Numbered from the stretch's first letter, positions 41,942 to 55,406 are shown. The stretch: DNA of 64,000 nt from Phycisphaerae bacterium (GCA_028714855.1 JAQTLP010000003.1:124001-188000); one strand, 5' to 3'. Notes: generated by a model from the letters alone, not told the origin. Made by a program: numbers and translations.

Positions 41942-42148
41942 CCGCGAATTAAGAATTTACAGGCGAAACAGGCCAACGGAGGGGTTATACGCATAGTTAG
42001 TAGGAAATGGTAAGAAATGCTAAAAAGAGAGAAAAAATGAAATAAATTGCAAAAAACAAGCAGCAATCCCTCGACTTTGCTCGGGACGAGATTTCAAATA
42101 ATTTCCAATCATCAAGATACAAAATTCAAAAATAAAAAATTGAGTGTG

Positions 42149-42207
42149 GGTTGCCTAAGTTAACAAGAAGAAAAGCAAAGATGCTAAATTAAAAATAGGC
42201 GGCTGTC
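42149..42207 (-). repeat. RHS boundary repeat A, copy 1 (array end)
   Basis: About 57 bp nearly identical to 46545-46603, including GGTTGCCTAA, TTAACAAGAAGAAAA, CAAAGATGCTAAATTAAAAA and GGCGGCTGTC. It lies just beyond the last membrane gene of the array. The spacer 41942-42227 holds no gene. Confidence 0.8.
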
Positions 42208-42227: not shown

Positions 42228-42419
42228 TTATTTTTTCTTCATTAACTGACCTTTTGCCCAAACTCTTGTACATTCACCAGCGAATATAAATATGAAAACT
42301 AATAAATAAGTATAACGAAACTGTGAATCTGATATATACAAACCGCCGATTATCCCTAATCCGAAAAATTTTACTGCCGCTGCTATACGACAGATTGTAT
42401 CTAATGTATCACTACTCAT
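42228..42419 (-). CDS. Small membrane protein, putative immunity partner of tip 7
   Basis: A 63-residue protein with two hydrophobic helices (AAAVKFFGLGIIGGLYIS and YTYLLVFIFIFAGE) and a basic tail (KGQLMKKK). ATG 42419 has AGGA 9 nt upstream. It follows the stop codon of the tip-7 cassette by 11 nt. No family was recognised; the role is inferred from the tip-then-membrane-protein pattern repeated seven times. Confidence 0.6.
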   Translation of the reverse strand: MSSDTLDTICRIAAAVKFFGLGIIGGLYISDSQFRYTYLLVFIFIFAGECTRVWAKGQLMKKK

Positions 42420-42430
42420 AAAAATATTTC

Positions 42431-43072
42431 CTAAATACCAATGGTACAAGCTATCGCACAAGCTATTACAATTGCCTTAATTTCTGGAGGGCTATCAGGC
42501 CCTAAGCTTTTGCGCGGGTCTAAAACAAAAGACATACATTTATTCACACAATCACTCAATGTATCACTCTCGCAATCCCATGTACCTTCACTAGCACAAA
42601 GCGCACTACAAGAAAGCGCTACACTAGCCATACAAGCTATGCATGCAACGCTTGGCCCCCCTGCTTTGATCTTTAATCCACTTGGATCAATCCAGTTAAC
42701 TGGATTATTTGTACAATATAGATATAGATTCATCGAATCTTTGTACCCTATCGGGTCTTTGCTAATAAACCTGCCGATACTTGGCTTGTAATACCTTGCT
42801 CTCAAAAAGACCAGACTGTCCGCTTCGGCAAATTGTTGCTCTCCAGTAAAGCCATAGGCGTTGGTGATAGAGCCAGAAGAGGCGATTACGCTGCCGAAGG
42901 AATCGTAAGTGTAGGAGGCAACAACTGCCTCATTGTCGGCTGTTAGTTGTCTCGTGCTACCTAAGCCATCGTAGAGATAAAACGAATTCGCATCTGCTCG
43001 CTTCATACTTATTAAGTCGTTTCCGTAGGTATAAACGGCCTGAATTATACCCGCGTCATCAGTTTCCATCAA
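42431..43072 (-). CDS. Displaced RHS core and Cys-rich C-terminal tip (tip 7)
   Basis: The first about 130 residues repeat the parental RHS core (YTYGNDLISMKRADANSFYL, DGLGSTRQLTADNEAVVASY, GFTGEQQF, LVFLRARYYKPSIGRFISKD, DPSGLK). The unique tip (about 80 residues) is Cys-rich: SVACIACMASVALSCSALC, WDCESDTLSDCVNKC, and a final hydrophobic AIVIACAIACTIGI. It lacks a signal peptide and RHS barrel repeats, so it is probably a silent donor cassette. Homology with the parent begins at GTTCAGGT, just before the ATG. Confidence 0.8.
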   Translation of the reverse strand: MMETDDAGIIQAVYTYGNDLISMKRADANSFYLYDGLGSTRQLTADNEAVVASYTYDSFGSVIASSGSITNAYGFTGEQQFAEADSLVFLRARYYKPSIGRFISKDPIGYKDSMNLYLYCTNNPVNWIDPSGLKIKAGGPSVACIACMASVALSCSALCASEGTWDCESDTLSDCVNKCMSFVLDPRKSLGPDSPPEIKAIVIACAIACTIGI

Positions 43073-43092
43073 TACCTGAACCTGCTTGACCG

Positions 43093-43389
43093 CTACACCC
43101 CATTATTCCATTTATCGTGGTTACTTCCTTTTTCGCGTAACCAATCCTGTAACATTTTACTAAGGATTGACGACGCCAATATAATTAGACCCACGATTAA
43201 AAAAGACGGCCACTTTTTCTCACCTTCACATAGGGTGTCCGCAACGAAAAAAAACTTGCTTCCGACATACAGAAGCAATAAATATATTAGAAGGAAACAC
43301 GCGGTTCCATGCAATGTTTGATATTTACTTCTCCATAATCGAGCGAACACTGAGTTATTTTGTTCTTTCCTTTTTATGGTAGTATCCAT
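43093..43389 (-). CDS. Small membrane protein, putative immunity partner of tip 6
   Basis: A 98-residue protein with two hydrophobic helices (TACFLLIYLLLLYVGSKFFF and PSFLIVGLIILASSIL) and charged ends. The frame extends to 43527 inside tip 6, but MDTTIKRKEQ at 43389, 20 nt after the tip-6 stop, is the sensible start. Family unknown. Confidence 0.6.
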   Translation of the reverse strand: MDTTIKRKEQNNSVFARLWRSKYQTLHGTACFLLIYLLLLYVGSKFFFVADTLCEGEKKWPSFLIVGLIILASSILSKMLQDWLREKGSNHDKWNNGV

Positions 43390-43409
43390 ACCTTTCGTGT
43401 ATAACTTAT

Positions 43410-44015
43410 TTAAAGACAAGCAAGTATCAATCCTGCTACGTATCCTCCGACAACAGCTGCTAGGCAGCCAAAGAGGCACGGACCAACCCCCACGCCCCCT
43501 GTTACTGAACCACATCCAGCCACACAAGACACGTAAAGCGCCGCAACGCCAATGACCCCAATGACATCGACAACATCGCTACATTTTAGGGCATCCTTAA
43601 TACAACTCCAAGTACCAAGCCCTCGTGGATCCGCAAAGTTAATGGGGTTGTTGTGCACATATACATAAGGATGCAGAGATTGTGGTCGATGAATTAAATT
43701 CAAATGAGGTAAAATCCATCCTACATAACCTCCCATTTGTATTGGCACTAAAATCGGATCTCTGGAGATAAATCTGCCGATGGATGGGTTGTAATATCTG
43801 GCTCTTAAGAAAACTAAACTGTCTGCTTCGTTGAATTGCTGCTGGCCGGTGAAGCCATACGTATTAGCCACAGAGCCCACAGAGGAAATTACATTGCCAA
43901 AGGAATCGTAGGTGTAGGAGGCAACCACGGACTCATTGCTATCTGTGAGCTGTTTGACGGAGCCGAGACCATCGTAGAGATAAAACGAATTCGCATCGGC
44001 TTTGTTCATATTCAT
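43410..44015 (-). CDS. Displaced RHS core and C-terminal tip (tip 6)
   Basis: The core repeats NKADANSFYLYDGLGSVKQL, SFGNVISSVGSVANTYGF and SLVFLRARYYNPSIGRFISR, then a variant core end (DPILVPIQMGGYVGWILPHL, YVYVHNNPINFADPRG), shared only with tip 5. The tip (about 70 residues) is hydrophobic with cysteines: WSCIKDALKCSDVVDVIGVI, VSCVAGCGSVTGG, VGPCLFGCLAAVVGGYVAGL. No Shine-Dalgarno precedes the first ATG, so expression in place is doubtful. Confidence 0.78.
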   Translation of the reverse strand: MNMNKADANSFYLYDGLGSVKQLTDSNESVVASYTYDSFGNVISSVGSVANTYGFTGQQQFNEADSLVFLRARYYNPSIGRFISRDPILVPIQMGGYVGWILPHLNLIHRPQSLHPYVYVHNNPINFADPRGLGTWSCIKDALKCSDVVDVIGVIGVAALYVSCVAGCGSVTGGVGVGPCLFGCLAAVVGGYVAGLILACL

Positions 44016-44045
44016 AAAGGGAGAAAAAGCTTACTCTATGCTTTT

Positions 44046-44264
44046 TTATTGCCCTAGTAATTTGGGAAGAGTTAAAGCGTAATTAAAAAGCACGACAGCA
44101 ACTGCAAGCCACAAACCAGCACAAAAAACAATAACACCCCACCATCTAATAGTAGCTCTTGATGCTTGACTTATTTTATATTTTGTCTTGTCAGGCCAAA
44201 TTATTATGATAAATCCTAATATACAGTAAAATATAACCCATACTATGAGATAGATTGAAAACAT
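44046..44264 (-). CDS. Small membrane protein, putative immunity partner of tip 5
   Basis: A 72-residue protein with two hydrophobic helices (YLIVWVIFYCILGFIIIIW and WWGVIVFCAGLWLAVAVVLF). AAGG lies just before the ATG. A weak A/T-rich hairpin (AAAAAGC/GCTTTTT, 44024-44046) overlaps its stop codon and might terminate transcription. Unknown family. Confidence 0.6.
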   Translation of the reverse strand: MFSIYLIVWVIFYCILGFIIIIWPDKTKYKISQASRATIRWWGVIVFCAGLWLAVAVVLFNYALTLPKLLGQ

Positions 44265-44337
44265 ACCTTACACTACTCCTATTAACTATATTAAAACAAG
44301 AAAATTCATGCCCCAAGACCTTGGTATCCCATTTCCC

Positions 44338-45168
44338 TCACCCCATATACCAAGGTATTCCACACGCCTTTATCATGTCTTTAAATTCTTTTGTTTTAGT
44401 AGCTTTATCCCATGCATCTTTAGTGTCGCATGCATCTGCATCTCTACTTTTCTTTAACTCTTTTAACTTCCTCATAAATTTGGGAATTTTCGAAAAGCAG
44501 TTAATCGCGAGTATACCTCCTATTATTATAAATCCACCTATAATTATTACCCCACCGATACCGGCCACCATACCCTCAGGATCAATATAGTTTACCGGAT
44601 TATTACTGCAATACACATAAGAGTGTGTTTTTTGAGGACTCCCCGTCAAATGAGGCAAAAGCCAGAAGAAATTATCCCACACTTTTATTGGCGCAAGAAT
44701 CGGATCTCTTGAGATAAATCTTCCAATGGATGGGGCGTAATATCTGGCCCTTAAGAAAATAAGGTCATTCGCTTCGCCGAATTGCTGCTCTCCGGTAAAA
44801 CCATAAGGATTACCGGTCACATCAACCTCTATTGCTTTGGATACCGGAATTTGTCCTGTAAGCAGCAGTATAATAAATAAAGCGATTAATCCTTGTTTTC
44901 TCTTCCTGATTGCAACAACGCCGGCACCTAAACCAAAACACGCCAAAACCAAAACTCCTGATTCGTTGATTGATTTATTCCCTCCCGCAGCATTGGACGC
45001 CATCCCTCCACCAGCGGTTTGAGCGATTACGCTGCCGAAGGAATCGTAAGTGTAGGAGGCAACCACGGCCTCATTGTCAGCTGTTAATTGTCTCGTACTT
45101 CCCAACCCATCGTAGTTGTAGTAAGAATTTACATCAGCTCTTTTCATATAATGCCGGAAAAGCCCCAA
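44338..45168 (-). CDS. Displaced RHS core and tip (tip 5), with inserted sorting-signal-like segment
   Basis: The core starts KRADVNSYYNYDGLGSTRQL and continues to SFGSVIA, where an extra about 65-70 residues intervene (44812-45021) before PYGFTGEQQFGEANDLIFLR. The insert contains NESGVLVLACFGLGAGVVAI then RKRKQ, like an exosortase-type C-terminal signal, followed by a second hydrophobic stretch LIALFIILLLTGQIPVSKA. The core end is the DPI-LAPI variant shared with tip 6. The tip has a Gly-rich membrane helix (MVAGIGGVIIIGGFIIIGG) and a charged region with three Cys. It lacks a ribosome site. Confidence 0.75.
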   Translation of the reverse strand: MGLFRHYMKRADVNSYYNYDGLGSTRQLTADNEAVVASYTYDSFGSVIAQTAGGGMASNAAGGNKSINESGVLVLACFGLGAGVVAIRKRKQGLIALFIILLLTGQIPVSKAIEVDVTGNPYGFTGEQQFGEANDLIFLRARYYAPSIGRFISRDPILAPIKVWDNFFWLLPHLTGSPQKTHSYVYCSNNPVNYIDPEGMVAGIGGVIIIGGFIIIGGILAINCFSKIPKFMRKLKELKKSRDADACDTKDAWDKATKTKEFKDMIKACGIPWYMG

Positions 45169-45179
45169 ACCAATACAAT

Positions 45180-45210
45180 TTCAGCGAAATAAAACCGCTG
45201 AACCAGTACA
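45180..45210 (-). repeat. RHS boundary repeat B, copy 2 (hairpin)
   Basis: Between the tip-4 partner and tip 5. Contains AACCAGTACA and AAAACC(GC)TGA shared with 48944-48969; here a perfect 7-bp stem TTCAGCG (45180-45186) / CGCTGAA (45196-45202) is present. Confidence 0.65.
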
Positions 45211-45243
45211 TACGTATGATTTATTGTGCAATACGATATAACA

Positions 45244-45990
45244 TTAACTCTTTTGCTGTAAAGGACATGAGAAAAAGCATTTCGGAAAAAAGCTCTTCTT
45301 TTCCCTCAATTCTCCTATGTCTTTCTTCTCTTTTTCAAGTATCTGTTTCATATCTCTAACAGTTATTTGTAATTTTTCATCTTTAACAGCTTTTGCATAA
45401 TCATCTATAATCTCTACCCCTTCTCTTTTACATATAAGCCCAATTAATTGAGTGGTTTTGTCTGTGTAGTCACAGAACTGAACACCCATAGCAATGCATA
45501 CGCTACCCAAAAGGAGACATTGCTCACGGTTCACATCACTTTCTAAATATGATTTGGATAGAGAATGTAAACTCTTAGGAATCAAAATAAATGACTCTAA
45601 ATTATACTTTTTCCCATTTACATTAACATCTGTATCTACGGGGCCGACCTCAATGTCTAATGAATCTCCCTTAGCACCATCAACGATTAGTTCTAGAAAC
45701 CGGTCTATTCTGAAATCAGTCACATCTCTAATATTATTTTCATTTACTCCGTGCACGCTAAGCAACGAGATAGCTTCTGCGTAATTCTCAATAGAAGTTT
45801 TCTCGGAACTCAAAAAACCTTTATTTCGTGCAAACTGCTCCCATAAGGGATCCTGTGTAAAGTTTATTATATTTGAATTTCTCCTACTTACTGCTATTAC
45901 TGCGATCAGCAAGATTATTAGTACAATAATAGCTACAAAAATAATTCCTTTTTTCAGTGGAACCACGAATCTATACCGCATTTTAGACAT
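45244..45990 (-). CDS. Single-pass membrane protein, putative immunity partner of tip 4
   Basis: A 248-residue protein: short basic cytoplasmic end, one membrane helix (IIFVAIIVLIILLIAVIAV, about 15-33), then about 210 residues outside the cytoplasm. It differs from the other partners, which are small and multi-pass. ATG 45990 has AAGG 9 nt upstream and lies within the last 37 nt of tip 4, so translation may be coupled. No family recognised. Confidence 0.6.
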   Translation of the reverse strand: MSKMRYRFVVPLKKGIIFVAIIVLIILLIAVIAVSRRNSNIINFTQDPLWEQFARNKGFLSSEKTSIENYAEAISLLSVHGVNENNIRDVTDFRIDRFLELIVDGAKGDSLDIEVGPVDTDVNVNGKKYNLESFILIPKSLHSLSKSYLESDVNREQCLLLGSVCIAMGVQFCDYTDKTTQLIGLICKREGVEIIDDYAKAVKDEKLQITVRDMKQILEKEKKDIGELREKKSFFPKCFFSCPLQQKS

Positions 45991-46517
45991 TCTGGGGCAC
46001 CTTCTTTTATCATATCTATACATATTTTGATCCACCGTCTTCTTTTCAATTCACATTTAAGTTCCTTCTCGAGACTTCCGCATGATGGATCATCTGGTTC
46101 ATCTAAACATTTAGGTCTCATCTTCATACAAGCGTCATAATATACATGCATGTAGAAACCACACCAGAAACAAGTCCATAGTAGCTTGCCTGATGGGTCA
46201 ATATAATTTGTCGAATTATTCTTTACGTATGTATACAAGTTTAAACCATCAACGTATCCAATCGGGTCTCTGCTAATGAACCTGCCGATTTGCGGCGAAT
46301 AATATCTTGCTCTTAAATAGACCAGATTGTCTGCTTCGCTGAATTGCTGCTCTCCCGTGAAGCCGTAGGGGTTGGTGGCAGAGCCGGAGGAAGCGATTAA
46401 GCTGCCGAAGGAATCGTAAGTGTAGGAGGCAACAACTGCCTCATTGTTAGCTGTCAATTGTCTAGTGCTTCCTAAGCCATCGTGGAGATAAAACGAATTC
46501 GCATCCGCTCGCTTCAT
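45954..46517 (-). CDS. Displaced RHS core and Cys-rich tip (tip 4)
   Basis: Core KRADANSFYLHDGLGSTRQL, GFTGEQQFSEADNLVYLR, GRFISRDPIGYVDGLNLY. RHS homology extends upstream of the first ATG to about 46549 in the same frame (TYGDDLIS), where it meets boundary repeat A. The tip (about 80 residues) has paired cysteines: LLWTCFWCGFYMHVYYDACM, KCLDE, SCGSLEKELKCELKRRR, CIDMIKEGAPECLKC. No signal peptide; likely a silent donor. Confidence 0.78.
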   Translation of the reverse strand: MKRADANSFYLHDGLGSTRQLTANNEAVVASYTYDSFGSLIASSGSATNPYGFTGEQQFSEADNLVYLRARYYSPQIGRFISRDPIGYVDGLNLYTYVKNNSTNYIDPSGKLLWTCFWCGFYMHVYYDACMKMRPKCLDEPDDPSCGSLEKELKCELKRRRWIKICIDMIKEGAPECLKCGIDSWFH

Positions 46518-46544
46518 ACTGATTAAATCATCGCCATAAGTATA

Positions 46545-46603
46545 GGTTGCCTAATTTAACAAGAAGAAAATCAAAGATGCTAAATTAAAAAATGGTGGCT
46601 GTC
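46545..46603 (-). repeat. RHS boundary repeat A, copy 2
   Basis: Nearly identical to 42149-42207, placed between the tip-3 partner (ends 46616) and the tip-4 cassette. A third, partial copy of its core AAAATAGGCGGCTGT is at 47493-47507. Confidence 0.8.
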
Positions 46604-46615
46604 TGTAATTTCCCT

Positions 46616-46822
46616 CTATTCTCTGCGAGAAAGCTGTTTATCGCTTGTTTTATAAAACAACGCCAATGCAATAACCACCAAGCCGATGATTATACCTAAT
46701 ATAAATTTGCTTTCCCCCCTCCCCGAAAAACCAATATAGCTTAGTAAAACAACCATAATGCCGGTGAACAAACTGAGTCCCTGTTCCAACTTGCTTCTTC
46801 TTGGTCGCTTAATGTTCCACAT
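46616..46822 (-). CDS. Small membrane protein, putative immunity partner of tip 3
   Basis: A 68-residue protein with two hydrophobic helices (LSLFTGIMVVLLSYIGF and FILGIIIGLVVIALALFY) and a basic N-terminus (MWNIKRPRRSK). It follows the tip-3 stop by 14 nt. Unknown family. Confidence 0.6.
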   Translation of the reverse strand: MWNIKRPRRSKLEQGLSLFTGIMVVLLSYIGFSGRGESKFILGIIIGLVVIALALFYKTSDKQLSRRE

Positions 46823-46836
46823 TTTTGTTTATACCC

Positions 46837-47511
46837 TTAATCATCTTTAACAGTACAGAACAGATAGGCCCCCGTCGCCTCGCCGGCACAGTAAAGCGCC
46901 CATGCACCACCGCCTATACCAACAGCGGGGCAGAACATACCACCCGCACCCACTCCTCCCATTCCTAACGCGGCCCAAAGCGAACTACAGAGTGGTGTCA
47001 TTGCATCTCCCATACACGCGCTAAGAGATGGATAGCCCCGCCGTCTCCATCGTGGTGGTCCTGATGGTCTTTCCCTTCTTATGCCATATGGATCGCTGAA
47101 ATTGACAGGATCATTTTCTACATATGCATACAAATTTATTCCGCCCTCATACCCAATTGGGTCTTTTGAAATAAATCTGCCAATACTTGGCTTGTAATAC
47201 CTTGCTCTTAAAAAGACTAAACTGTCTGCTTCGTTAAATTGCTGCTCGCCGGTGAAGCCATAGGGATTAACAACTGAGCCCACAGAGGAAATTACATTAC
47301 CAAAAGCATCATAATCATACGAGGCAACCACGGACTCGTTGTCAGCGGCCAATTGTCTCGTGCTTCCTAAGCCATCGCAGAGATAATAAGAATTCGCATC
47401 AGCTCTATTCATACTGATTAAATCATCGCCATAAGTATAAGCAGCCAAGACTGAATTTGTATCAGTCGTTTCCATTAATACCTGAACAAGCGAAAATAGG
47501 CGGCTGTACAT
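46837..47511 (-). CDS. Displaced RHS core and tip (tip 3)
   Basis: Homology to the parental core starts at VQVLMET and runs through YTYGDDLISMNRADANSYYL, GFTGEQQFNEADSLVFLR and GRFISKDPIGYEGGINLYAY to DPYG. The tip (about 85 residues) has an Arg-rich start (RRERPSGPPRWRRRGYP) then a Cys- and Gly-rich hydrophobic half (SACMGDAMTPLCSSLWAALG, GGMFCPAVGIGGGAWALYCA). The first codons read through boundary repeat A core, so the first Met is probably fortuitous. Confidence 0.78.
   Translation of the reverse strand: MYSRLFSLVQVLMETTDTNSVLAAYTYGDDLISMNRADANSYYLCDGLGSTRQLAADNESVVASYDYDAFGNVISSVGSVVNPYGFTGEQQFNEADSLVFLRARYYKPSIGRFISKDPIGYEGGINLYAYVENDPVNFSDPYGIRRERPSGPPRWRRRGYPSLSACMGDAMTPLCSSLWAALGMGGVGAGGMFCPAVGIGGGAWALYCAGEATGAYLFCTVKDD
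47493..47507 (-). repeat. RHS boundary repeat A, partial copy 3
   Basis: AAAATAGGCGGCTGT, identical to part of 42192-42206, directly before the start of tip-3 homology. Confidence 0.65.
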
Positions 47512-47531
47512 AGTTTTTGCAATATTATCGT

Positions 47532-48206
47532 CTAATCAGTTATTACCTTCTGATCAGTATGATGTCCACGTATTACCAGATGCGTTGTGATTTTATAAGC
47601 TTGCCACGCGATCAAAAGTAATATTATGCTTGCTATCTTAGCACGAAGCGAATGGGTATGTCCCATCAGTTCCATAATTGCAACAGAAGAAGATACCCAT
47701 AAAATAGCAACCAGATATCCTATAAACTGTTTAACCAATGTTTCTCGATGTTTCTGCTCTAATGGTTTAGACAATTGAAACCATCTGCCTAGATTTTTGC
47801 GACACATCCAACATAAGCAACCGATGATTATTGCGGCTAACAAAATTACCAAATTCACCGGTATAACATAAGGCATCTCTGGCATAAGTAACCTGAGTTT
47901 TTCGAACATAGTGCCCAAAAGTAGGAAACCAAGAAGAAAAATAGTAATTAACCATATCCTGAGGGTGGTTTTTGCAGAACTCCGTAGCCATGAATAAATC
48001 GCGAGATATACGCAATAGACCCCAGTAAAAACCATCAATATTGTGACAATTAAAAAGGAAAACGAAAAAGCCTGCTTTGAATCAGTCATGTGCCAAATTG
48101 CGAATGCCATTGCAAAAACTATATACAAACCTATGCATCCTGACAGAATCGCCGAAATTCTTGCTAAAAATTTACTTGGTTCTGAAAATAGCTCTTTCCG
48201 TTTCAT
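47532..48206 (-). CDS. Polytopic membrane protein, putative immunity partner of tip 2
   Basis: A 224-residue protein with about six hydrophobic helices (for example ISAILSGCIGLYIVFAMAFA, LVILLAAIIIGCLCWMC). The frame begins at 48281 inside tip 2, but MKRKELFSEP at 48206 has AAAGGAG 7 nt upstream and starts 11 nt after the tip-2 stop. No transporter motif seen. Confidence 0.62.
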   Translation of the reverse strand: MKRKELFSEPSKFLARISAILSGCIGLYIVFAMAFAIWHMTDSKQAFSFSFLIVTILMVFTGVYCVYLAIYSWLRSSAKTTLRIWLITIFLLGFLLLGTMFEKLRLLMPEMPYVIPVNLVILLAAIIIGCLCWMCRKNLGRWFQLSKPLEQKHRETLVKQFIGYLVAILWVSSSVAIMELMGHTHSLRAKIASIILLLIAWQAYKITTHLVIRGHHTDQKVITD

Positions 48207-48217
48207 ATATGTCTCCT

Positions 48218-48910
48218 TTATGGACATGGACATGGAACAAGTGAGCAATCCATCAAATCGGCCGCCAGCCCAATTTCGCACCCTGCTTCGAAACTGAGCC
48301 CAGCGTCATAGGCAATAGCAAGAAGAGGACCCCATACCGCAACACATGTACCTTTACATATTTCTTTTGCTATTGGTGGCATCCGCTTACCACAATCACT
48401 TAGACAGTCTTTAAAACCATCTTCAGCCGCCTTTATAATGGCTTCTCCAATTGACATACATAAGGAAAATGTCACGTAAGCATCTTCAATACATTTATCT
48501 CGAGCCGGACATTTGCCTTTGGGATCTGTATAATTAACCGGGTTATTCCTCACATAAGCATATAAGTTTATACCACCTTCGTAGCCTATCGGATCCCTGC
48601 TCAAAAATCTTCCTGCGGCGGGGTTGTAGTATCTTGCCCTCAGATAAAGCAGTTCGCTTGAACTGTCAAACTGTTCGCCTGTGAAGCCATAGGCGTTGGT
48701 GATAGAACCAGAAGAAGCGATTAAGCTGCCGAAGGAGTCGTAGGTGTAGGAAGCGACCACTGTCTCACTATCATCTGTCAACTGTTTGACGGAGCCGAGG
48801 CCGTCATAAAGATAGAACGAATTTACATCCGCTCGCTTCATACTTATTAAGTCATTGCCGTAATTATAGACGGCCTGAACTGTGCCTGCGGTATCGGTTT
48901 CCATAACCAC
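48218..48910 (-). CDS. Displaced RHS core and Cys-rich tip (tip 2)
   Basis: The core (METDTAGTVQAVYNYGNDLI, DGLGSVKQLTDDSETVVASY, YLRARYYNPAAGRFLSRD, DPKG) is the most diverged copy; it has GEQFDSSSELL where others have GEQQF-EAD. The tip (about 100 residues) has paired Cys: KCPARDKCIEDAYVTFSLCM, DCLSDCGKRM, ICKGTCVAVWGPLLAIAYDA, CEIGLAADLMDCSLVPCPC. First cassette after the intact RHS gene and its partner. Confidence 0.8.
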   Translation of the reverse strand: MVMETDTAGTVQAVYNYGNDLISMKRADVNSFYLYDGLGSVKQLTDDSETVVASYTYDSFGSLIASSGSITNAYGFTGEQFDSSSELLYLRARYYNPAAGRFLSRDPIGYEGGINLYAYVRNNPVNYTDPKGKCPARDKCIEDAYVTFSLCMSIGEAIIKAAEDGFKDCLSDCGKRMPPIAKEICKGTCVAVWGPLLAIAYDAGLSFEAGCEIGLAADLMDCSLVPCPCP

Positions 48911-48943
48911 CTGAACAAATTGGTTTTATCCTGCTTATTTTAA

Positions 48944-48969
48944 CTTCGAAAAAACCATGAACCAGTACA
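48944..48969 (-). repeat. RHS boundary repeat B, copy 1
   Basis: Between the partner gene at 49014 and tip 2; shares AAAACC-(A)TGAACCAGTACA with 45180-45210. Confidence 0.6.
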
Positions 48970-49013
48970 CCATTATGACAATACTATTGTTTGACATGCC
49001 GTCCACCATATTT

Positions 49014-49493
49014 CTAATTTGCTGCAGGAGTTGGTAGTATTTTCTTTCTTCTTCTATGCGCTATCAGCCAAGCTCCTAAAAAAGCGCATACCCAAAGTAA
49101 GGCCATCTGGAGAATCCAAGAAAATCCTAGGATAACTTGGAAATGGTTTTTGATGGACCATGGAATTCCGACAAGGATAGCTTTCGATAAGAGAATAATA
49201 GTAGCAATAGTTACTAACAGGTTAACTATTATTATTGTAATTATCCGATTACTTCTCGATATAAGACTTATGACAATAGCCGTTAAAAAACCCGAAATAC
49301 CAAAACCTAACACGTCTAATAAACAAGATATCGAAATGCACAGGTAGGGATAAGGAAGCCATTCAGTTGATATTAGAAGCTGAACCCTTGAAGAAAGAGT
49401 CAAAAACAAAGGAATAAATATACATATACACAATACGGAACCGATAATAATTGAAATAATTTCTGTAAATATATTTTTGTAACTATAACTCAT
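49014..49493 (-). CDS. Polytopic membrane protein, putative immunity partner of the expressed RHS tip
   Basis: A 159-residue protein with four hydrophobic helices (IISIIIGSVLCICIFIPLFL, LLDVLGFGISGFLTAIVISL, IIIVNLLVTIATIILLS, LQMALLWVCAFLGAWLIA) and a basic tail. ATG 49493 has AAGGA 9 nt upstream; a GTG at 49511 is less likely. It follows the RHS stop by 22 nt. Unknown family. Confidence 0.62.
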   Translation of the reverse strand: MSYSYKNIFTEIISIIIGSVLCICIFIPLFLTLSSRVQLLISTEWLPYPYLCISISCLLDVLGFGISGFLTAIVISLISRSNRIITIIIVNLLVTIATIILLSKAILVGIPWSIKNHFQVILGFSWILQMALLWVCAFLGAWLIAHRRRKKILPTPAAN

Positions 49494-49515
49494 TTGGCAG
49501 TTTCCTTTCACCTAA

Positions 49516-51336
49516 CTAGAAGATGCCTGGCCCCATCGTTCCTTTCGATGATGCACAAAGGGAACGGCAAGCCCAATCCTTAGCCACACACTTAAACCAT
49601 CCTATTAGTCCGGGATTTGTAATTTTGCACTCCCAAAACTTTTGGTTGCAACAACCAATACAGGCCTGGGTATTAAAAGCGTCGGAAGCCATGCCTGGAC
49701 AACCTTCAGTTTCCTCAAGTTGTTCTTTCCATTTTTGACATGCACTCTTCATCTTCAAACCTGACGGGTCTACAAGGTTAACAGGATTATTGTTCACGTA
49801 TGCATACAAGTTTATACCACCATCATACCCAATCGGGTCTTTGGAGATAAACCTGCCAATACTTGGCTTGTAATATCTGGCTCTTAAGAATACTAAATCG
49901 TCTGCTTCACTGAACTGCTGCTCTCCCGTGAAACCGTAGGCGTTAGCTACAGAGCCAGAAGAAGCGATTACGCTGCCGAATGAATCATAGGTGTAGGAGG
50001 CAACCACTGCTTGATTGTCTGCTGTTAATTGCCGTGTGCTTCCCAAGCCATCATAATGATAGAACGAATTTACATCAGCTCTGTTCATACTGATTAAATC
50101 ATCGCCGTAGGTATAGACGGCCTGAACTGTGCCTGCGGTATCGGTTTCCATAAGCACCTGAGTAAGCGGCGACGCCACATCATTTATATATTTAGTTTTT
50201 ACGCCGTTTTGGGTTTTGCTTATTCTTACGCCCTCGCCATTATATTCATAAAGAGTATTGCCGGCCGGCTCGGATACGGACAAAAGGTGGTTTGCCCAAT
50301 CCCAGGAGCAGGTTGTAGTGCTGCCGGCGGCGGTTTTTGTCTGGAGGTTGCCGCAGCCGTCGTAAGCATAAGTAATAGTTGCGCCGCCGGCGGCTTCTGT
50401 CAATAGCTGATTATTATTGTTATAGGTGTAACTGGTTGTATTTCCATCCTTAACCATACTGGTCCTATTACCTACATCGTCATACTGGTAGGAAATAGAG
50501 TAGGCATTTGAGCCGGTGCGGGTTTCGGAAGTGAGCTGATAGATTTCGTCATACTCATAGGTTACAGATGAGCCGCTGTATTCTGATACTGATAATCTAT
50601 TGCCCGCATAGTCGTACGTATAGCTGAAAGAAGATAATACCGCCCCTGTTGAGTCTTTGTTTACCAAAGAGAGGAGCCAATTCCTCTGCGAATCATAGGC
50701 GTATAGCGTATAGCTGCCGTTGGGGTAGTCGGCCTGCGTCAGCTTGCCTAAAGAGTCATATCGGTAAGCTGTTAAACCGGCAGGAGCATTGACCTCTATG
50801 AGGCGATTAAGCTCGTCATAGGCATAGACGGTAATACCGCTGTTGGGGTCGGTCAATTGCGTTCTATTGCCGGCGGCGTCATATTGATAGTTTACGGTTT
50901 TATTGTTCGTGTCGGTAACGGAGGTCAATCTATTGAGATAATCGTAGGTGTAAGAGGTGGTGCCGGCTGGGTCTGTCATCGAGGTCCTGTTGCCCAGGCC
51001 ATCGTAAGTGTAGTTGATATAATGCCACTTGGAAACACACACGCCATTTTCACATAATTCCTCGGCGCCACAGCTTGATATGCAGTGTCCCTGACCATCA
51101 CATACTTCGCAGTTGGAAGACACGCATGTTGACTGGCAGCTGCCGTTTACACAGGTTCGACATTGGCTGGAGAAACAATAATTGTAACATACGCCACAAT
51201 GACAGTACTGACAAGGTCCGCACGGCGAACGGCACTCAAGACAAGGACAGCCCCAGGCAGAGGCGGAAAATACGAACAAGACCACAAGCGTAGATAAAAT
51301 AACGAAGCTTCTCGATAGTTTAAGATTATTTTTCAT
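49516..51336 (-). CDS. Secreted RHS protein, C half: Cys-rich domain, RHS repeats, core and tip 1
   Basis: A 606-residue exported protein. Signal peptide (about 1-29, ending ASAWG); about 20 cysteines in residues 30-110 in short spacings (CPCLECRSPCGPCQYCHC), like a small disulfide domain. YD repeats run from about 118 to 420, then the RHS core to NLVDPSGLK. The unique tip (about 75 residues) is Cys-rich: QACIGCCNQKFWECK, WFKCVAKDWACRSLCA. The start is MKNNLKLSRS, with GAGGAG 6 nt upstream, inside the end of the preceding RHS gene. The pair resembles TcB/TcC-type split RHS cocoons. The likely cleavage point is at DPSGL, as in other RHS cores. Confidence 0.88.
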   Translation of the reverse strand: MKNNLKLSRSFVILSTLVVLFVFSASAWGCPCLECRSPCGPCQYCHCGVCYNYCFSSQCRTCVNGSCQSTCVSSNCEVCDGQGHCISSCGAEELCENGVCVSKWHYINYTYDGLGNRTSMTDPAGTTSYTYDYLNRLTSVTDTNNKTVNYQYDAAGNRTQLTDPNSGITVYAYDELNRLIEVNAPAGLTAYRYDSLGKLTQADYPNGSYTLYAYDSQRNWLLSLVNKDSTGAVLSSFSYTYDYAGNRLSVSEYSGSSVTYEYDEIYQLTSETRTGSNAYSISYQYDDVGNRTSMVKDGNTTSYTYNNNNQLLTEAAGGATITYAYDGCGNLQTKTAAGSTTTCSWDWANHLLSVSEPAGNTLYEYNGEGVRISKTQNGVKTKYINDVASPLTQVLMETDTAGTVQAVYTYGDDLISMNRADVNSFYHYDGLGSTRQLTADNQAVVASYTYDSFGSVIASSGSVANAYGFTGEQQFSEADDLVFLRARYYKPSIGRFISKDPIGYDGGINLYAYVNNNPVNLVDPSGLKMKSACQKWKEQLEETEGCPGMASDAFNTQACIGCCNQKFWECKITNPGLIGWFKCVAKDWACRSLCASSKGTMGPGIF

Positions 51337-51346
51337 AAACAGCTCC

Positions 51347-54133
51347 TCAATTTTCATATTTTATCTGAGTTAAGCGGTTAATATTGTCGTAGGTGTAATA
51401 AGTGAAACGGCCTTTTCCGTCTCTTCTGGTCAGCATATTGCCTTCAGCATCGTAGGTGTAGGATTCGTATTCGCCAAGAGGATAGGTTACTTTAGTCAGC
51501 CGATTTAAGTTATCATAGGTATAGGTAGTGGTATTCCCCTTTGCATCTTTTAAGGATACGAGATTGCCCGCTCTATCATAAGTGTAGGAGGTATCATTTC
51601 CATTTGCATCTGTTACTTTGGTGAGCCGGTTTAACGGGTCATATTCGTAATCGGTTGTATTTCCATTCTCGTCCCTACGCTGACTTAAGCCGCAGCAACT
51701 GTAGGTGTATTGAATATAGTTCGAATCAGGATGGGTTATTTTTGTTACGCGGTTTAAATTATCATATTCATAGGAAGTAGCCCCATTTTCATTGGTCATC
51801 GATAATTTTCTGCCGATAACGTCGTAGGTGTAAGTAGTTATATTCCCGTTAGGGTCGGTAGTTTGGATGAGATTACCGTTGGGGTCATAATCGTAAAAAG
51901 CAGGATTTCCCAATGCATCTGTCATCGAGGCAACCAGGCCATTGCCATCATAAGTATAGGAAATGACAGAAAGAACAGTTTGGTTAGGGTCTTTCTCTGT
52001 AACAGACAGGAGATTATTAAAACTATCATATTCATAAGATGTGACTTTGCCTCTGGGGTCAGTGGCTGAAATCCGGTTATTTTTCGTATCGTAGGTGTAT
52101 GACCAGCTATTATTTAACGGGTCGGTTTTGGAGAGGAGATTATGCTTTGTGTCATAAGTATAGTAAGTTACACGCCCCATTTTATCTCTTACCTGTATTT
52201 TGTTACGATTATCATCGTAAGTATATAAAACATTATTTCCTGAATCATCTTCTATCTTTATGGTATCTCCATAATAAGGCCAGGGGCAGTAGTCGACGCA
52301 AGTATTCGAGTCTGGAGTGTAATAGGTAGAGTTTCCCCTTGGGTCTATCACATAGATGGGACCTCCCGCACCTCCGTTACATTGATATAAGTTATCGTTA
52401 GGGTCGGTTATCTCCGACACCCATATTTCTCCCAAACCAGCGTATTCAATCGTGTAGGTGCCCTTCGGCCCGGTGATAGAAGTAATATTGTTGTGATTGT
52501 CATAAGCGTAGGTAAATGTATTTCCCGCCATATCCACCACTTGGGCGAGATTGCCGTTGGCATCGTATGTAAACGTCGCTTCTCTGGCTAACGGGTCGTT
52601 TACCAGAGTGATTCTTCCTGCGGCGTCGGTTTGTATATCAGTAATTCTGCCTACCGCGTCAGTTATGGAAGTAAGGTTATCATTTGCGTCGTATTGGAAG
52701 CTCACTATATTTCCATTCGGGTCTTCCATAGCAAGAATTTTCCCGCCGTTCGCATGTGTATCATAATGATATTTTTCGTGGCTCTTCGTGAATTCCAAAG
52801 TAAAAGTATCATTCCCATTTTTGGTTAATTTTCTGCTTACCCCGACAGGCGGGTTGTAATATCCGCCTGAATAAGTAAAGGTATCATCGTGTCCTCCAGC
52901 TCTTCTAACAGTTACTGTGGTAAGATTCTCTGTTATTTTTGTCTCCAGATTAGAATGCCAGCTATTTCCAAAATATCCGGTATGCGAGAGGTCGGAATTG
53001 AAGGTGAGGGAAACTTTCACATCCTCTCCTATCGCAGTGATATATCCAATAGGAGTGTCTCTTACTATAAGAGCCAAAGCAGAGGTATCGACAGTAACTC
53101 GCGGGAAACCAAAACCATAAGAACAACAACCGCCGCCACCACCGCCAGCACCGGGGCCTGCTTCCGCTCTATCACAACATTCACCTTCACACTCTGTTAT
53201 CGGCTGTTCAGGACAACAATCGCAGGTCCCCAGAAGAATGTTACTCAACTCCTTTTTGGCAAGTTTGGCGAACTTCCTGCCAGAAGGAGTTGAGAGCGCC
53301 AAAACCTTATCTGTCCATATATCGGCCAATTCTCTTTTATAATAGGAAATCTCACCCAGAACAGGGTCGTAAACTATTACTTTCCCATCGATATCCTCTT
53401 CAATATCTTTTATCACTATCAGATGCGAAGGTTTTACTACCGCCACGAACGGCAACCGAAGGTTCTCTATTCTATCAAGCGGGCATTTTACCGCTTTAAG
53501 TTTCACATCTTCTTTTTTGAGGAATTTCAGGATTTCGGAAAGAGAAACAAGACCATCTTTTAAAGTTATAGACGAAGCAAGTTTCCGCCTGTCTAATTTT
53601 ACTCCTTGTGAGGTCAAATAGTAATTAATGGATTTTGTAGCACAGTTGGAGACAAGCTGCCGCTCACCTCCTGCTAAAGCAAGATTCACCCACTTTGCCC
53701 ACGTGGAGGCGTATTTTCTCTGCTGCCAGGTTTTTGCTTCTGACGCAGCCTTACGGAAATACTTTAAGGCTTTCTTGTAATCATTCAGTTTGTAGTAATT
53801 ACAACCTGTGCGGGCAGATGCTTCTGCAGAAACCCAGGTGTTGGGAAACAGTTCCGCTGCTTTTTGATAAGTCTTTGTGGATTTGGAGAAATCACGCTTA
53901 GATTTGTGGTATAAACCCATCCACAGGTAAGCGTCTCCGGCTTCAGGCGAAGCAGGAGATGTTTTTATAAGATTTTCGGCGGATTCGTACGCTTTCCGCC
54001 AGTCGCCTTTTTTTAATGCTTCTTTGAGCTCACAACCGCACTGCGAAGGAGGCAATGATTTTTCAGCAGCGTTCAGGGCAACCGGCAGATACTGCAACGA
54101 GAAAAATATTAAAATAATGGAAATTCTTTTCAT
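51347..54133 (-). CDS. Secreted RHS protein, N half: TPR, C39-like peptidase domain, RHS repeats
   Basis: A 928-residue exported protein. Signal peptide (1-22), TPR helices (about 35-155), then a C39-peptidase-like domain: SNCATKSINYYLTSQG (Cys164), PFVAVVKPSHLIVIKDI (His237) and VIVYDPVLGE (Asp256), a complete Cys-His-Asp set. A Cys/Gly-rich linker (CDCCPEQPITECEGECC, then a run of Gly) leads into the beta entry domain of RHS proteins (LTFNSDLSHTGYFGNSWHSN) and about 20 YD repeats up to the end. It has no core or variable tip; those are in the next gene, whose frame overlaps the stop codon. ATG 54133 is 22 nt after the TPR gene. Confidence 0.87.
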   Translation of the reverse strand: MKRISIILIFFSLQYLPVALNAAEKSLPPSQCGCELKEALKKGDWRKAYESAENLIKTSPASPEAGDAYLWMGLYHKSKRDFSKSTKTYQKAAELFPNTWVSAEASARTGCNYYKLNDYKKALKYFRKAASEAKTWQQRKYASTWAKWVNLALAGGERQLVSNCATKSINYYLTSQGVKLDRRKLASSITLKDGLVSLSEILKFLKKEDVKLKAVKCPLDRIENLRLPFVAVVKPSHLIVIKDIEEDIDGKVIVYDPVLGEISYYKRELADIWTDKVLALSTPSGRKFAKLAKKELSNILLGTCDCCPEQPITECEGECCDRAEAGPGAGGGGGGCCSYGFGFPRVTVDTSALALIVRDTPIGYITAIGEDVKVSLTFNSDLSHTGYFGNSWHSNLETKITENLTTVTVRRAGGHDDTFTYSGGYYNPPVGVSRKLTKNGNDTFTLEFTKSHEKYHYDTHANGGKILAMEDPNGNIVSFQYDANDNLTSITDAVGRITDIQTDAAGRITLVNDPLAREATFTYDANGNLAQVVDMAGNTFTYAYDNHNNITSITGPKGTYTIEYAGLGEIWVSEITDPNDNLYQCNGGAGGPIYVIDPRGNSTYYTPDSNTCVDYCPWPYYGDTIKIEDDSGNNVLYTYDDNRNKIQVRDKMGRVTYYTYDTKHNLLSKTDPLNNSWSYTYDTKNNRISATDPRGKVTSYEYDSFNNLLSVTEKDPNQTVLSVISYTYDGNGLVASMTDALGNPAFYDYDPNGNLIQTTDPNGNITTYTYDVIGRKLSMTNENGATSYEYDNLNRVTKITHPDSNYIQYTYSCCGLSQRRDENGNTTDYEYDPLNRLTKVTDANGNDTSYTYDRAGNLVSLKDAKGNTTTYTYDNLNRLTKVTYPLGEYESYTYDAEGNMLTRRDGKGRFTYYTYDNINRLTQIKYEN

Positions 54134-54155: not shown

Positions 54156-55406
54156 TTACTTCTCATTCTTACTGTTTTCCATTTTAATACGATATTCTAC
54201 AATAAGCAGCTGAGCCTGCTGGGCATCTTCAAAATCAGGCCAGTTATTGATAATCTTTTGGAAGTAATCTATTCCTTTCTGATATTCCCCCAATTCCTGG
54301 GCATAACAAACCGCCGAAGAAAAGTAGGCATTCGGAACAACCTCCGAATCGGGGAATTCAAAAATTAAACGTTCCCAAACTTCTATAGCTTTTCTATAAA
54401 ATAGTTTTTCTCCGTTGGCATCTCCTTCAAGATTCATCAGGCGAGCTTTGGCGTAATATGACAGCCCTATATTTCGAACCACATTTGCCACATCCGGATG
54501 TCCGGCGAAATCCACAATTAGTCTGTCAATGGCCTCTTCAGCACTATCGTATCCTCCTGACATTATTAGAGACTGAATGTTCGCCATTGAGAGGCCTAAC
54601 TTTGCCCTGTCAACGGCAGACGAATTATCAGGATAGTTCTGTATTATCCACTGATAGAGAATATTCGCTTTTTCATACTTACCCGAACGGGCATATCTGT
54701 CTGCAATCCAGTAAATTGTATCATGCAAATCCGGATGGTCCTTGAAATCAGCAACAAGCTTAGCAAAAGCTTTTTCGGCACCATCGTAGTCCTGCGACAC
54801 GATGAGAGACTGGACGGCTGCCCTTGAAACACCTAACTTTGCTTTAACTGCGAATGGGCTATCAGGATAGTTCTGTATTATTTGCTGATATGTGCTTTTT
54901 TCCTCTTCGTATCCGTCCCAATACCCAAATCCTCGTCCGATCCAGTAAAGCTCTTCCGGCAAATCCGGGTGGCTTGAGAAATTGGCGACAAGCTCCTCGA
55001 GGGCCTCTTTGGCCATATTGAAGTCCCTGGCGACAATAAGAGAGAGGACTTTCACCTTCGCGATACCTAAATTTGCCTTACTAACGATGGAGCTGTCAGG
55101 ATAGTTCTGTATTATTTGCTGATAGAGGCCTTTCGCACATTCATATTTATCCGATTTATCCGACCATCGATATCTTTCCGCTATCTCGTAAAGGGCCTGT
55201 GGCAGGGCCTGGTTTTTGGGGAAACCGGCGAGCAATTTCTGAATTTGCGCCTGGGCCTGGGTGTAATTGCCCCCATTGACAAGTGAAACGATATTTGACT
55301 TTGCCTGCTCAAGCCTATCCGATGCATCGACGGGGACTTTGGCTACGGCTACAGATACCAGCAAGATAATAAAAGCTAAGGCTATGGAATGGCTTTTTTT
55401 AGACAT
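54156..55406 (-). CDS. Exported tandem-TPR protein, first gene of the RHS operon
   Basis: A 416-residue protein with a signal peptide (about 1-22, LAFIILLVSVAVA) and four or five repeats of about 75 residues, each containing QQIIQNYPDSS-(x)-VSKANLGIA-like units. This is the TPR pattern of YbgF/BamD-type periplasmic scaffolds. The near identity of repeat boundaries (YQQIIQNYPDS at three places) points to recent internal duplication. A periplasmic adaptor or chaperone for the RHS pair is plausible. AAGG lies 8 nt before the ATG; a 23-codon leader frame overlaps its start. Confidence 0.8.
   Translation of the reverse strand: MSKKSHSIALAFIILLVSVAVAKVPVDASDRLEQAKSNIVSLVNGGNYTQAQAQIQKLLAGFPKNQALPQALYEIAERYRWSDKSDKYECAKGLYQQIIQNYPDSSIVSKANLGIAKVKVLSLIVARDFNMAKEALEELVANFSSHPDLPEELYWIGRGFGYWDGYEEEKSTYQQIIQNYPDSPFAVKAKLGVSRAAVQSLIVSQDYDGAEKAFAKLVADFKDHPDLHDTIYWIADRYARSGKYEKANILYQWIIQNYPDNSSAVDRAKLGLSMANIQSLIMSGGYDSAEEAIDRLIVDFAGHPDVANVVRNIGLSYYAKARLMNLEGDANGEKLFYRKAIEVWERLIFEFPDSEVVPNAYFSSAVCYAQELGEYQKGIDYFQKIINNWPDFEDAQQAQLLIVEYRIKMENSKNEK

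Follow-up and report, generated by a model that had tools for sequence, protein, structure and literature searches.

A probable polymorphic RHS toxin locus with short, cysteine-containing tips and an array of tip and partner genes in a Phycisphaerae bacterium

We analysed a 64,000-nucleotide (nt) stretch of DNA from a Phycisphaerae bacterium (GCA_028714855.1, JAQTLP010000003.1:124001-188000; hereafter the window), whose minus strand carries, from 51336 to 42228, one exported RHS gene followed by six displaced copies of the RHS core with their own C-terminal tips. Behind each of the seven tips (T1 to T7) lies a distinct partner gene (I1 to I7), and all seven partners have at least one hydrophobic segment. 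We consider this, with good probability, a polymorphic RHS toxin locus with an array of toxin/immunity cassettes. Loci of this type, with orphan cassettes of tip and immunity gene, are already known; the class of payload is unusual, and the shell would be encoded by two genes. A more ambitious reading, which we put forward tentatively, is that a separate RHS lineage, here with a two-protein shell, delivers a new class of payload—disulfide-stapled helical mini-toxins, marked by twin CX3C or CX2C cysteine motifs, that would act on bacterial membranes, each matched by a membrane immunity protein of its own, and would be stored as exchangeable silent cassettes.

Architecture of the array and its shell genes

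Each of the seven cores scores above the TIGR03696 cut-off (32.5 bits), and the homology between copies ends sharply: DNA identity of 62-79% across the core drops to about 35% exactly at the DPxG tip boundary, in an alignment of five copies from which T5 and T6, with their longer core variants, were left out; the fall at the boundary itself is from 63-83%. The seven-tip array set out in a preliminary description of this sequence is thus borne out. The exported gene, rhsB (49516-51336), ends in T1 (49516-49758; 80 residues, nine cysteines, twin CX3C at 33/37 and 64/68) and is followed by I1 (49014-49493; 159 residues, about five transmembrane segments). The orphan units then run in order along the same strand: a core with T2 (48218-48910; tip of 98 residues with 11 cysteines and twin CX3C), which lacks a ribosome site, and I2 (47532-48206; 224 residues, about six transmembrane segments), which has an AGGAG site; a core with T3 (46837-47511; tip of 81 residues, five cysteines) and I3 (46616-46822; 68 residues, two transmembrane segments); a core with T4 (45954-46517; tip of 77 residues, nine cysteines, twin CX2C) and I4 (45244-45990; 248 residues, one transmembrane anchor and a predicted folded domain); a core with T5 (44338-45168; tip of 77 residues, three cysteines) and I5 (44046-44264; 72 residues, two transmembrane segments); a core with the very hydrophobic T6 (43410-44015; tip of 69 residues, seven cysteines, twin CX3C) and I6 (43093-43389; 98 residues, two transmembrane segments, ribosome site doubtful); and a core with T7 (42431-43072; tip of 81 residues, nine cysteines, three CX3C motifs) and I7 (42228-42419; 63 residues, one or two transmembrane segments). 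Measured from these coordinates, the partner start codon (ATG) lies 22, 11 and 14 nt behind the stop of T1, T2 and T3, overlaps T4 by 37 nt, and lies 73, 20 and 11 nt behind T5, T6 and T7, in agreement with the spacings given in the earlier account. The partner genes have a guanine-plus-cytosine content of 32-40%, against 47% for the whole window.

Two further features were seen within the array. The T5 core, which bears the least cysteine-rich of the seven tips, holds a 70-residue insertion (44812-45021) with two hydrophobic stretches that is found in no other fetched locus. Separately, a 65-nt direct repeat (89%) at 42143-42207 and 46539-46603 flanks the units T4 to T7; it was rejected as a genome-wide element, its copies being confined to the array (42143 and 46539) and found nowhere else in the genome.

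None of the orphan reading frames has a signal peptide or a convincing ribosome site, the AGGT of T7 being part of the conserved core sequence. A ribosome-site match precedes six of the seven partner genes (weak at I3, none at I6). Because no convincing start signal precedes any of them, the orphan tips would be expected to go untranslated, and since most immunity genes keep their ribosome sites, the cell would stay immune to the whole set. As judged from these signals, the orphan tips are probably silent and the immunity genes translated.

Upstream of the array, the gene order on the minus strand is a tetratricopeptide repeat (TPR) gene, rhsA and rhsB. The first gene of this probable operon (54156-55406) encodes a YbgF/YfiO-like TPR protein of 416 residues, recognized by Pfam and NCBIfam, and a 22-nt gap separates it from rhsA (51347-54133). 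RhsA comprises a signal peptide, TPR, a C39-like peptidase domain (E = 2e-11, with the C, H and D residues present), DUF6531 and 12 YD repeats, and has neither core nor tip; no comparable match to its TPR-C39 N-terminus was found in 98 relatives. RhsB comprises a signal peptide, a cysteine-rich segment, 10 YD repeats, the TIGR03696 core and T1, and its relatives in the PDB include Tse5 (E = 2e-42), Tre23 and TcC. The cysteine-dense segment, at 51028-51261 between signal peptide and YD repeats, is in no other fetched locus. The preliminary description had seen here one complete secreted RHS protein: RhsB is indeed exported, as read from its signal peptide, and carries core and tip, but it would be half of a shell whose other member, the likewise signal-peptide-bearing RhsA directly upstream, had been missed. 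Since rhsB has its own start (ATG at 51336) behind an AGGAG at 6 nt, a strong ribosome site directly past the rhsA stop, the simplest reading is of two separate genes in one operon; this site and the signal peptide of RhsB led us to reject a single gene split by sequencing error.

In the arrangement that we propose, RhsA and RhsB would be exported through Sec and would together form the RHS shell, with RhsB carrying the active payload T1 and I1 serving as the immunity protein of T1. The six downstream units would be former or spare 3' ends, each a core piece, tip and immunity gene kept in register, and recombination through the conserved core would place another tip and its immunity gene onto the shell.

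Tip class, pairing and exchange among relatives

The tips span 69-98 residues and contain 3-11 cysteines, with medians of 80 residues and 11 cysteines per 100 residues, against 176 residues and 0.9 cysteines per 100 residues in the other genomes of the order. Short, cysteine-dense tips are also rare among those sampled more widely from the phylum, and we found no description of such tips in the open-licence papers searched. A set of 17 cysteine-dense tips contains 21 CX3C motifs where 8.3 would be expected, and two or more copies are present in 10 of the 17 against 1.2 expected, with 0 of 1000 shuffles as high—a figure that is not a blind test, as the motif had been spotted in the same tips beforehand. 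Some of these ten tips are homologous (T1 with that of locus L036, and L034a with L035), so that the independent families number about eight. No other cysteine spacing was enriched among the 17. Within the window, twin CX3C is found in T1, T2, T6 and T7, and twin CX2C in T4; a nested ladder of further symmetric cysteine pairs, present in T1 and T4, was discarded as being at chance level (2 against 1.6 expected). All seven tips (9, 11, 5, 9, 3, 7 and 9 cysteines from T1 to T7), and most cysteine-type tips of relatives, have an odd cysteine count, which may reflect a free cysteine or an intermolecular bond.

The cores that bear such tips are themselves related. In a phylogeny of 150 cores, the label for short, cysteine-dense tips needs 6 changes against 14.5 when shuffled (0 of 500 as low), a clustering to which near-copies add; one clade of 12 cores (Shimodaira-Hasegawa-like approximate likelihood ratio test, SH-aLRT, 98) holds 11 cores with short, cysteine-dense tips from three genera (those of the window and of the genomes G077 and G042), although the alignment is short and the finer branching unreliable. 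The impression that the tips are unusual in being short and cysteine-containing is upheld, and sharpened by the twin CX3C and this apparently dedicated core clade.

RHS matches were found in 74 of 99 related genomes, with orphan arrays in several, and similar pairs of tip and partner recur between genomes of the order. The T4/I4 pair is matched in G051 (tip E = 1.5e-4, partner E = 2.8e-24), and in G087, from a different family, an I4 homologue again stands behind a T4-like tip; both pairs sit on other core types, and a T4/I4-like pair is present in three genera. A T1 homologue is carried on a core of G077 (E = 1.7e-5), and the best match of I1 among about 100 partners is the partner beside that homologue (2 of 500 shuffles as high). 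Matches to T1 in G083 and G157 (E about 0.008) were rejected as spurious frames. A solitary I4 homologue in G081 (L122:8023-8718) adjoins a TIR-like gene and has no RHS tip. The genome of the window itself holds a second RHS array (L158, G000:C7:102000-120000), with three tips of 169-185 residues, one cysteine each, and partners with multiple transmembrane segments. The EUB338-II 16S pattern was tried as a marker of the phylum and matched neither this genome nor any of eleven relatives, while the RpoN sequence gave no more than a hint of a planctomycete.

In G077, cores that are 92-100% identical in DNA over about 180 nt bear unrelated tips, which is direct evidence, from a relative, that tip exchange at the core occurs. 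The earlier suggestion that toxin/immunity cassettes recombine at the core is therefore supported by this recent exchange, by the sharp tip boundary and by the co-conservation of T4/I4 (weakly, T1/I1). For the present strain we infer tip switching, as we do toxicity and the disulfides.

These data also bear on whether the orphan units are simply debris in decay—3' ends that were displaced and now serve for nothing except immunity. Such decay would agree with the missing start signals and with the absence of the array from two genomes of the same genus, both of which have rpoN (in G001, rpoN is separated by one gene from an ArsP homologue, and here one lies beyond the array). However, all six orphan frames remain open despite core divergence to 62-79% DNA identity, the ratio of nonsynonymous to synonymous substitution rates (dN/dS) between cores is 0.05-0.26, far under 1, where dS is measurable (many pairs are saturated), and exchange has been recent in G077. 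We therefore hold debris to be unlikely.

A similar weighing applies to the idea that the array is self-directed, encoding phase-variable surface or development factors whose membrane partners act as receptors. The unusual TPR-C39 head of RhsA could be taken in its favour, but the anatomy, polymorphism, pair conservation and orphan arrays fit toxin loci (PMC3482391), and we regard a self-directed role as very improbable.

Possible mode of action of the tips

Under the proposal of membrane-acting mini-toxins, the twin CX3C or CX2C motifs of five of the seven tips would suit a disulfide-stapled helical hairpin formed after export; the tips would act on the membrane of a competitor as a channel or ionophore, and the cognate partner would block them within the membrane. 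The predicted model of T1 has three helices and places C33/C37 and C64/C68 on two adjacent ones, which is what a stapled hairpin would need; helices 27-47 and 51-69 are modelled with a predicted local distance difference test score (pLDDT) near 80. Segments of membrane-spanning grade are found in T5, T6 and T7. Membrane action is favoured by the small size and partial hydrophobicity of the tips, by the membrane location of all the partners, and by precedent in Tse5/Tsi5 (PMC9637101) and the ionophores of contact-dependent inhibition (CDI) systems (PMC11630599); taken alone, we would judge it about evenly balanced between true and false.

A serious rival is that, at the same locus, the tips are disulfide-stapled periplasmic effectors that target the cell wall or a periplasmic protein, or bind metal or haem, without inserting into the membrane, the membrane-anchored immunity proteins facing the periplasm. 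The RHS proteins here are exported, and partners across the order are mostly transmembrane-anchored or lipoproteins whatever the type of tip; because membrane-anchored partners accompany all kinds of tip, membrane immunity may only mark the place where it meets the toxin. Consistent with this, the AlphaFold2 model of I4 (mean pLDDT 78.6) shows one membrane helix and a folded, mostly helical domain. On the other hand, the membrane-spanning-grade segments of T5, T6 and T7 argue for insertion, and I1, I2, I3, I5 and I7 are mostly transmembrane, like the immunity proteins of ionophores. We consider a periplasmic target possible, at somewhat less than an even chance.

Membrane partners had initially been taken as an unusual feature of this locus, a view that did not hold: a hydrophobic segment is present in 51 of 61 partners called mechanically within the same order, and membrane immunity to RHS and CDI toxins has been published (PMC9637101, PMC11630599).

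Several observations weigh against stapled, membrane-acting toxins with cognate immunity. T3 and T5 have no twin-cysteine motif of either spacing, and T1 to T4 contain no strongly hydrophobic 19-residue segment. The T1 model as a whole is of low confidence (pLDDT 64); fold searches with the T1 and I4 models returned no solved-fold match for either, Pfam gave no match for T1 or T7, and no tip or partner matched a known toxin or immunity family. Only two of the seven pairs (T4/I4 and, weakly, T1/I1) have relatives by which cognacy can be tested, none having been found for T2/I2, T3/I3, T5/I5, T6/I6 or T7/I7, and some partners of cysteine-type tips in relatives (L035, L046) look soluble or like exported propellers rather than transmembrane bundles.

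Known systems and significance

Polymorphic RHS toxins that keep orphan rhs-CT/rhsI modules are known (PMC3150448, PMC3967940, PMC3482391), and the present locus shares with them the YD shell, TIGR03696 core, variable tip, downstream immunity gene, displaced cassettes and core exchange. It differs in its short, cysteine-dense tips without a known domain, in a shell that would be split between two exported proteins, in the TPR and C39 domains of RhsA, and in having six cassettes in one array. Tse5/Tsi5 pairs a pore-forming Rhs effector of the type VI secretion system with a membrane immunity protein of two transmembrane segments (PMC9637101); the RHS shell, to which RhsB is matched, and membrane immunity are common to both, membrane action here being proposed. 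In contrast to Tse5, export here is by signal peptide and the tips are cysteine-dense and of 69-98 residues, with no sequence relation shown for the tips; the Pfam scan found no PAAR domain, and together with the signal peptides on RhsA and RhsB this sets the locus apart from Rhs effectors of the type VI system. CDI ionophores are highly diverse alpha-helical toxins whose two-helix CdiI immunity proteins have 72-100 residues (PMC11630599), to which the small hydrophobic I3, I5, I6 and I7 (63-98 residues) are comparable, whereas the carrier here is RHS, the tips bear a twin-cysteine motif, and the low-confidence T1 model has no predicted five-helix bundle. The cocoon of Tc toxins (TcB/TcC) is a two-protein RHS shell with the tip on the second protein, as proposed here, and RhsB matches TcC chains; here, however, both shell proteins have signal peptides and RhsA has the TPR-C39 head, and by Pfam RhsA has no SpvB/TcdB-type domain such as would mark it as a TcB.

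Plant alpha-hairpinins follow a CX3C-Xn-CX3C spacing rule. The same spacing is found in T1, T2, T6 and T7, and a helix-loop-helix would be the common form (PMC7191063), yet the likeness is of spacing only: the tips have extra cysteines and an RHS carrier, and neither homology (Pfam, for T1 and T7) nor a matching solved fold (for T1) was found.

Toxin activity of the tips, if real, would mean that RHS proteins can carry unusually small payloads, and would link RHS delivery to bacteriocin-like, disulfide-stapled peptides. That one core clade is tied to one tip class suggests co-evolution of shells and payload types. The contrast in start signals, with orphan tips apparently silent and immunity genes apparently translated, would make this locus a clean example of stored weapons for which immunity is retained.

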